A stretch of DNA of 37,264 nucleotides from Gammaproteobacteria bacterium (GTDB lineage: Bacteria; Pseudomonadota; Gammaproteobacteria; DSM-19610): assembly GCA_026197075.1 (NCBI GenBank), contig JAPHQV010000024.1, positions 1 through 37,264 of the forward strand, given 5' to 3'. Both the position numbers and the translations under genes were made by a program. The notes beneath the pieces are model-generated. The model saw nothing but the letters and a program-made list of their open reading frames with translations. It was not told the DNA's origin and made no database searches. Below are positions 63 through 31,562 of the stretch, in pieces (positions within the stretch are counted from its first letter, which is position 1; every line of letters starts with the position of its first letter).

Positions 63-182
63 GGCACAGGATGCCGGACTGCCTGCCGACGCCTATGTAG
101 TGAACCAAACTATCGAATTGTACCCGTCTGAACTTTTCTTCAGGGTTACCACCAAGTACGCGTATCTGCGGGTTCATGGATG

Positions 183-330
183 GGACCGTAGGCCGCAAGG
201 GTGAGGCGGAAATAGCCCGATGTCCAGTGGACATCGGGCCCGCCGAACGGGTTCGCATGGTATTCGCGAACCCTGGATCTGCGCAGCAGACGGCCTCCGA
301 GCGTACAGGGATGTATTCACAGCGAGTCCC
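183..330. repeat. Composite nested-palindrome repeat, copy 2
   Basis: This block begins with GGGACCGTAGGCCGC (183-197) and ends with the core CGTACAGGGATGTATTCAC and GAGTCCC (to 330), so its outer ends pair like the other family members. The interior differs: it holds a perfect 11-bp stem with a 3-nt loop (215-225 with 229-239) and an 8-bp stem (249-256 with 266-273). It lies 48 nt beyond the pth stop. The whole stretch 1-377 has no believable gene. Open frames across it on both strands have no recognisable product. Confidence 0.7.
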
Positions 331-1613: not shown

Positions 1614-1650
1614 GTTGCTCTCCTGAAAAAATCACCAATCCGGTCCGCGG

Positions 1651-1752
1651 TCAGGGTGTCATCCCGTTGCGGGACCGTAGGCCGCATGGACGCGGCCTAC
1701 GAGCCTACAGGGATGTATTCACGGCGAGTCCCGAAACGGGATGACGCCCTGA
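1651..1752. repeat. Nested-palindrome repeat, copy 3
   Basis: Outer arms 1651-1674 and 1729-1752 are inverted (TCAGGGTGTCATCCCG against CGGGATGACGCCCTGA). They enclose a 54-nt core containing GGCCGCATGGACGCGGCC and CTACAGGGATGTATTCACGG. The core matches the copies at 29214-29265 and 31480-31531, whereas the arms do not match those copies. It lies between the prs stop (1847) and the rplY start. Confidence 0.85.
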
Positions 1753-1846
1753 CTGCGCACTTGCTTGGCGACCGCCTCACCCGCGACCAGGTTCGGCGTC
1801 TTGTTGACGGCGTATGCCGCAAATCGGATTCATGTCCCGCGGGACA

Positions 1847-2936: not shown

Positions 2937-3011
2937 TGGCTGGGCCGCCAGGATTCGAACCTGGGTATGCGGGGATCAAAACCCCGTGCCTTACCGCTTG
3001 GCGACGGCCCA
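2937..3011 (-). tRNA. tRNA-Gln (anticodon TTG)
   Basis: The minus strand folds as a 75-nt cloverleaf. The acceptor stem pairs TGGGCCG with CGGCCCA. The D arm has GCC/GGC. The anticodon arm is CGGGG-TTTTGAT-CCCCG with anticodon TTG (2977-2979), and the T arm is CCAGG-TTCGAAT-CCTGG. The CCA end is encoded (2937-2939). The U1-A72 pair is the usual bacterial tRNA-Gln identity feature. It lies 17 bp downstream of ispE and upstream of prs, a conserved position. Confidence 0.96.
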
Positions 3012-29173: not shown

Positions 29174-29188
29174 TGTCCGGTGGAGACT

Positions 29189-29290
29189 GGAAAGCCCCGC
29201 CTCTGTCGGCGGGTGTCGGCCGCATGGACGCGGCCGTCAAGCCTACAGGGATGTATTCACGGCGTCCCGCCGACAGAGGCGGGGTTTTCC
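29189..29290. repeat. Nested-palindrome repeat inside a terminator-like hairpin, copy 4
   Basis: Perfect or nearly perfect 25-nt arms: 29189-29213 (AAAGCCCCGCCTCTGTCGGC within) and 29266-29290 (GCCGACAGAGGCGGGGTTTT within). With the T-run at the end they look like a strong intrinsic terminator for mltB. The 52-nt core 29214-29265 occupies the loop. It is identical to the reverse complement of 31480-31531 except for one base. Confidence 0.9.
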
Positions 29291-29353
29291 AGCCATGGTG
29301 CATGTAGCCCAACCTCACTGGCATTTGGAACTCCTGCGCGGCACACTGGTCTT

Positions 29354-31448: not shown

Positions 31449-31562
31449 GCCCTGTCCATGCCGGTGACCCGCCGGCGGGACGCCGTGAATACATCCCTGT
31501 AGGCTTGACGGCCGCGTCCTTGCGGCCGACACCCGCCAACGGGTCACCGGCATGGACAGGGC
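31449..31562. repeat. Nested-palindrome repeat, copy 5
   Basis: Arms 31449-31479 and 31532-31562 are inverted with few mismatches (TGTCCATGCCGGTGACCCG against CGGGTCACCGGCATGGACA). They surround a 52-nt core, 31480-31531, that is the reverse complement of 29214-29265 with one substitution. The arms share nothing with the arms of the other copies. It lies just downstream of dacA. Confidence 0.9.

Follow-up and report, generated by a model that had tools for sequence, protein, structure and literature searches.

MITE-like palindromic repeats carrying a putative dual CsrA/RsmA site in Gammaproteobacteria

Copies of the repeat in the window and the genome

The window (the whole 37,264-nt stretch of DNA analysed) carries, between mltB and rlpA, a palindromic element of ~110 bp with no gene inside, in which two self-complementary arms enclose a core (Table 1). 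A sequence-only reading had recognised three copies sharing this core, one of them reversed, and these were recovered at 1651–1752, 29189–29290 and 31449–31562, the core at 31449 lying in opposite orientation. Each folds, as DNA or RNA, with a z-score of about −10, and 0 of 200 shuffles were equally stable. The copy at 1650–1753 has the strand bearing its GGA triplets (the GGA strand) antisense to both neighbouring genes, and the sister species has an inverted long form there. The only Rfam match in the window is a tRNA gene (2940–3011, minus strand, 61 bits).

Table 1 Features of the repeat copies in the window
Feature	Position	GGA strand	Details
Whole element, short form, mltB/rlpA intergenic region	29188–29291	+	R1 model 83 bits, folding
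Left arm TGGAAAGCCCCGCCTCTGTCGGCGGG	29188–29213	+	Pairs with 29266–29291
Hairpin 1, loop CATGGACG at 29223–29230, CsrA/RsmA-type motif CANGGANG	29218–29235	+	
Hairpin 2, CsrA SELEX-like site TACAGGGATGTA at 29244–29255	29241–29263	+	
Right arm CCCGCCGACAGAGGCGGGGTTTTCCA	29266–29291	+	Pairs with left arm, 29188–29213
Whole element	1650–1753	+	Arms 1650–1675 and 1728–1753; hairpin 1 loop 1685–1692; hairpin 2 site 1706–1717
Whole element	31449–31562	−	Arms 31449–31479 and 31532–31562; hairpin 2 site 31490–31501; hairpin 1 loop 31515–31522
Element copy truncated by contig end	1–68	−	74.7 bits
Long form, 149-nt core	182–330	+	Extra hairpins within hairpin 1; arms weak, decayed

A genome-wide search with an 18-mer returned 59 matches at ≤3 mismatches (0 for a reversed-pattern control), 54 of which are true copies by their upstream context, giving ~55 core copies in the genome. 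Self-complementary flanks are the rule: among the 41 matches with complete flanks, 37 reached an arm score of ≥30, as against 0.08% of 2449 random windows, and are surrounded by locus-specific, near-perfect inverted repeats of 25–31 nt, while the other 4 comprise two weak-armed copies and two probable chance matches (L056, L057). The analysis supports the sequence-only reading in so far as the repeat is dispersed, looks mobile and has self-complementary arms specific to each locus. Fourteen copies end at contig ends, indicating that the repeat breaks the assembly. The long form is present in five copies (L060–L064), with the extra hairpins ATGTCCAGTGGACAT, GAACGGGTTC and CGAACCC placed inside hairpin 1. 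Copies in this genome lie near gene 3′ ends, close behind stop codons, and rarely between divergent genes.

Arms and empty sites in a sister species

Comparison with a sister species (G001; flanks ~94% identical, both own-clade genomes being drafts) showed that the core and both arms are absent from the site orthologous to 31449. Flank searches at 22 further sites with both flanks assembled in the sister species found ~20 without core and arms and one (L019) with a different element copy. At L036 the sister species has a clean empty site, GCGTTAACACCTGACA, where a palindromic insertion of 139 nt stands in this genome; this single clean empty site is compatible with a TTA/TAA target duplication. 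The whole unit is thus missing at empty sites, as in miniature inverted-repeat elements (MITEs). The earlier proposal, in which the core inserts into the loop of palindromes or terminators that already exist, had named empty sites without arms as the outcome that would refute it, and this is the outcome at 31449 and ~20 other sites, the arms being missing together with the core.

The T-run at 29189, which had been read as part of an ordinary terminator of mltB, is exceptional among copies: only ~8 of ~250 have TTTT at the right end. With T-tracts nearly absent, an intrinsic terminator, which needs a T-tract behind its GC stem, was rejected as an explanation of the repeat. In other genomes of the host's taxonomic family mltB overlaps or abuts rlpA with no palindrome or terminator between them, so a terminator at this site is not ancestral; in most of these genomes dacA likewise lies a few bases from its next gene. 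Armless empty sites and the near lack of T-tracts together lead the loop-insertion proposal to fail.

Arms had also been described as differing completely between loci. They are locus-specific and self-complementary, but a weak family consensus is detectable near the core: in one subfamily, arms aligned outward from the core read GTCCCG-AACAGG-t-CCGG, with CCGG at a fixed distance from the core and the consensus fading outward. Some arms are common to several loci and species (L258 with L009, L036 and L046), and the median arm length is 26–30 nt in all groups. While hypervariable in their own genome, arms are partly conserved in genome G054 and in a Pseudomonas-like genus. The arms are part of the element, and they drift in sequence while staying complementary.

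Seven copies have a filled orthologous site in the sister species, and in 5 of the 7 the core points the other way with respect to the genes. One inverted pair has the long form in place of the short form, and in at least two the arms are recognisably related yet changed, with self-complementarity kept. As both assemblies are drafts, misassembly may account for a few inversions, though not for the exchange of long for short form. Aligned orthologous copies in Stenotrophomonas keep their orientation, so core inversion is not universal. Pairs with unrelated arms could reflect repeat insertion at the same intergenic hot spot. The arm-identity metric (orthologous versus random own pairs) was too permissive to prove arm orthology. 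Orthologous intergenic sites in the sister species (L367–L396) often hold unrelated hairpin repeats, namely GTAGGAGCGGCC REP pairs, GTCATTGCGAGCGNAGCGAAGCAATC repeats and GTCGGGCTGAAGCCCGAC, which we read as shared hot spots or as mutual replacement of repeat families; their presence at several orthologous sites, together with the missing elements, indicates fast turnover of such intergenic sites.

Core hairpins, host range and strand constraint

The core comprises two hairpins at fixed spacing, each with a C-ANGGAN-G loop, across 303 copies from many families; 15 nt separate the motifs and 20 nt the GGA triplets in 204 of 231 copies. GGA is kept in all 54 own-genome copies, under a selection that allowed any 3 mismatches, and loop variation outside it falls mostly at the two N positions. 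Hairpin 1, which was not part of any search pattern, reads CAGGGATG/CATGGACG/CAAGGACG in 36 of 37 own copies (motif CANGGANG), and hairpin 2 is UAC-AGGGAN-GUA. The structure is supported by covariation, with 88.8% of cells paired (62.9% shuffled), 18 of 22 pairs changing on both sides, and a covariation score of 0.640 compared with 0.161 for shuffled and 0.10–0.20 (maximum 0.197) for slid controls.

Sites of CsrA/RsmA are characterised by the SELEX consensus RUACARGGAUGU, an ANGGAN hexaloop and AC/GU closing pairs, and CsrA bridges sites 10–63 nt apart with an optimum >18 (PMC7652899). Both core loops match this published consensus at the sequence level, each being an ANGGAN hexaloop closed by C-G or AC-GU, and the 20 nt between GGA triplets place a second putative site within bridging distance. 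RNA copied from the core would therefore be a candidate for CsrA/RsmA binding. The genome encodes csrA, but co-occurrence was dropped as support because csrA is found in 19 of 21 genomes with the element and 61 of 74 without it, which does not discriminate. No Rfam family matched the element above its gathering threshold, RsmY scoring only 12.3 bits (threshold 57), and DUF3800-associated RNAs were rejected since that gene family is absent from the genome. Neither the core sequence nor a link between CsrA and such repeats was found in the literature searched.

All matching loci with a taxonomic name belong to Gammaproteobacteria or carry no label finer than Proteobacteria, and a covariance model matched 19 of 239 genomes drawn from across the phylum, all Gammaproteobacteria. 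Hosts include Marinobacter, Microbulbifer, Stenotrophomonas, Rheinheimera, Pectobacterium, Halopseudomonas, Ectothiorhodospira and others, with 40–54 copies in the Stenotrophomonas, Marinobacter and Microbulbifer genomes. The Pseudomonas-like genus (L403–L432) has palindromes of the same plan but different sequence, with two CANGGATG hairpins, GCGGCATGGATGCCGC and GGGCCAGGGATGGCCC (the second differs but keeps the CANGGATG loop), and more conserved arms. Larger units also occur: in G054 (L227–L246) a ~220-bp repeat with CTAAATACGTGTTCCGAAT as its inverted ends encloses the element, and divergent copy pairs ~200–350 bp apart, often between convergent genes, form composite inverted units (Stenotrophomonas L304, L308 and L155; Microbulbifer L130; L175). 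At L409 (~1350–1480), a long run of GGCTTT hexamers lies between two divergent element copies.

Mismatches within the arms are strongly asymmetric. On the GGA strand, G.T exceeds A.C by 271:62 at 6–30 nt from the core, compared with a ratio of ~1:1 outside the stem, and the bias is equally strong whether a copy is sense or antisense. Such an excess is not expected if double-stranded DNA mutates strand-symmetrically, which suggests that the GGA strand is constrained in a folded, single-stranded state. Orientation to genes, as called by a home-made gene finder, is balanced (14 sense and 17 antisense copies in this genome; 79:69 over all copies), and a by-eye inspection of the copy list of a single-contig Stenotrophomonas genome gave no obvious replichore strand pattern. 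If the element works as RNA, half of its copies would accordingly have to be transcribed antisense or by read-through, unless selection acts mainly while the element spreads, and the inversion of 5 of 7 orthologous copies indicates that no strong selection keeps the GGA strand transcribed. This balance is what chiefly limits our confidence, which stays moderate, and it keeps alive an explanation based on single-stranded DNA.

Candidate CsrA/RsmA module and alternative explanations

We consider it probable (roughly two in three) that these are MITE-like palindromic repeats carrying a dual CsrA/RsmA site, as judged from the motifs. The inserted unit would be the whole palindrome: a central module between two arms of 20–30 nt that amount to terminal inverted repeats. 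Its insertion would depend on a mobilising enzyme. On the GGA strand the module is predicted to form a structured RNA comprising a stem whose pairing is conserved though its sequence varies, a junction, and two C-ANGGAN-G hexaloop hairpins, spaced such that one CsrA dimer could bridge both. If transcribed by read-through or antisense transcription, this RNA should bind CsrA/RsmA and might serve as a small decoy or place a CsrA site in an mRNA 3′ region. After insertion the arms would drift together, and the core could flip, for which template switching within the palindrome is the simplest route.

The element might instead be an ordinary functionless MITE- or REP-like repeat whose core is conserved only through recent spread, as its high copy number and turnover, and the other hairpin repeats at the same intergenic sites in the sister species, would allow; the two-hairpin plan, compensatory stem changes and invariant loops across many gammaproteobacterial families make this unlikely. 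Equally unlikely, in our judgement, is that complementarity is kept solely because copying, through template switching in the palindrome, makes or remakes the arms at each site, with structural selection minor. Arms that change together between sister species agree with copying, as do the inverted cores, which strand switching at inverted repeats predicts and for which hairpin-associated minute inversions in chloroplast DNA offer a precedent (e.g. PMC2903610). However, a strand-specific excess of G.T inside the stems is not expected from copying, and draft assemblies could misplace some of the inversions.

Alternatively, the GGA strand may act as single-stranded DNA, its folded core being the signal for a one-strand transposase (cf. 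TnpA-REP/IS200-type) and the likeness to CsrA sites coincidental or secondary. Such a role would explain the random orientation to genes and a structural constraint that falls on one strand whether copies are sense or antisense, and it suits copies that behave as insertions and the composite, mobile-looking repeats of Stenotrophomonas and G054. Yet a DNA signal does not need both loops to match the CsrA/RsmA consensus including its two free positions, the ends lack a GTAG tag and no partner transposase was identified, so we regard this role as rather improbable. That a small core inserts into the loops of palindromes or intrinsic terminators already in place is very improbable: arms that differ by locus and pair perfectly, and copies close behind stop codons, are what such insertion would give, but it is at odds with orthologous empty sites without arms, missing T-tracts, an arm consensus at a fixed distance from the core and arms common to different loci and species.

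As a putative dual CsrA/RsmA module the core resembles CsrB/C, RsmX/Y/Z and 3′UTR/5′UTR targets, which likewise present ANGGAN hexaloop hairpins closed by C-G, with two sites at bridgeable distance. Dedicated Csr small RNA genes, however, number one to a few, each under its own promoter and bearing many GGA motifs, whereas the element has two motifs per copy and tens of dispersed copies with no promoter or terminator seen. The inverted repeats of the MITE-type families ERIC, YPAL and NEMIS are conserved in sequence, in contrast to arms that are hypervariable but paired around a conserved central module. All are otherwise alike in being noncoding, intergenic, ~70–300 bp long, with inverted ends and long RNA hairpins (PMC3733652). 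Inverted ends of 15–30 bp and the lack of coding capacity agree with MITEs; since the ends are not conserved between copies and no transposase matching them was found, we call the repeats MITE-like rather than members of a MITE family. REP/REPIN sequences (TnpA-REP) are similarly dispersed chromosomal hairpins, strand-asymmetric and in some genomes in inverted pairs, but the element has a two-hairpin core and much longer arms without conserved sequence, and REP/RAYT was rejected because the aligned arms contain no conserved GTAG or end tag. An autonomous transposon, suggested by two copies flanking a gene near aroA, was rejected as the genes are aroA and its normal neighbours.

The P. fluorescens repeats R0, R2, R200 and others, for which no CsrA connection was made, are also palindromic and intergenic, several having long inverted repeats around a core (PMC2718517); the variant palindromes of the Pseudomonas-like genus may be these catalogued repeats. 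Closer to the proposed function, RIP-seq in P. putida showed in vivo enrichment with RsmA, RsmE and RsmI of intergenic RNAs next to ISPpu8, among them a ‘long palindromic region’, and left these regions unexplained (PMC7937890). They are likewise intergenic, palindromic and associated with a mobile element, and their enrichment would fit a CsrA/RsmA reading of the element should they prove to be related to it.

Mobile palindromic repeats are a known kind of element; what would be new is a dual CsrA/RsmA-type module, proposed here on motif and spacing, beneath hypervariable but paired arms, a natural case in which stem sequence is free to vary and the displayed loop is held fixed. Carbon storage, motility, biofilm and virulence are under CsrA/RsmA control in these bacteria, and how active the protein is depends on the number of RNA sites competing for it. 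It is conceivable, at somewhat less than an even chance, that mobile repeats at tens of copies per genome in many gammaproteobacteria spread dual CsrA/RsmA sites, forming a distributed, heritable and fast-changing sink and bringing transcripts under Csr control by insertion. The Csr system would then have an unrecognised input in repeat copy number, genes could enter its regulon by transposition, and the IS-associated long palindromic regions of P. putida would have a reason for their Rsm enrichment.

The window copy was found on none of the plasmids searched, the Pectobacterium copy on 15, and the element on two viral contigs; a plasmid or phage origin was rejected, as plasmids and viral contigs hardly carry the element. 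The Pectobacterium-type copy (82% over 109 nt) is unannotated on the 15 plasmids, which are from E. coli, Klebsiella and Citrobacter (H6–H20); 14 of them are predicted to be conjugative and many come from wastewater.
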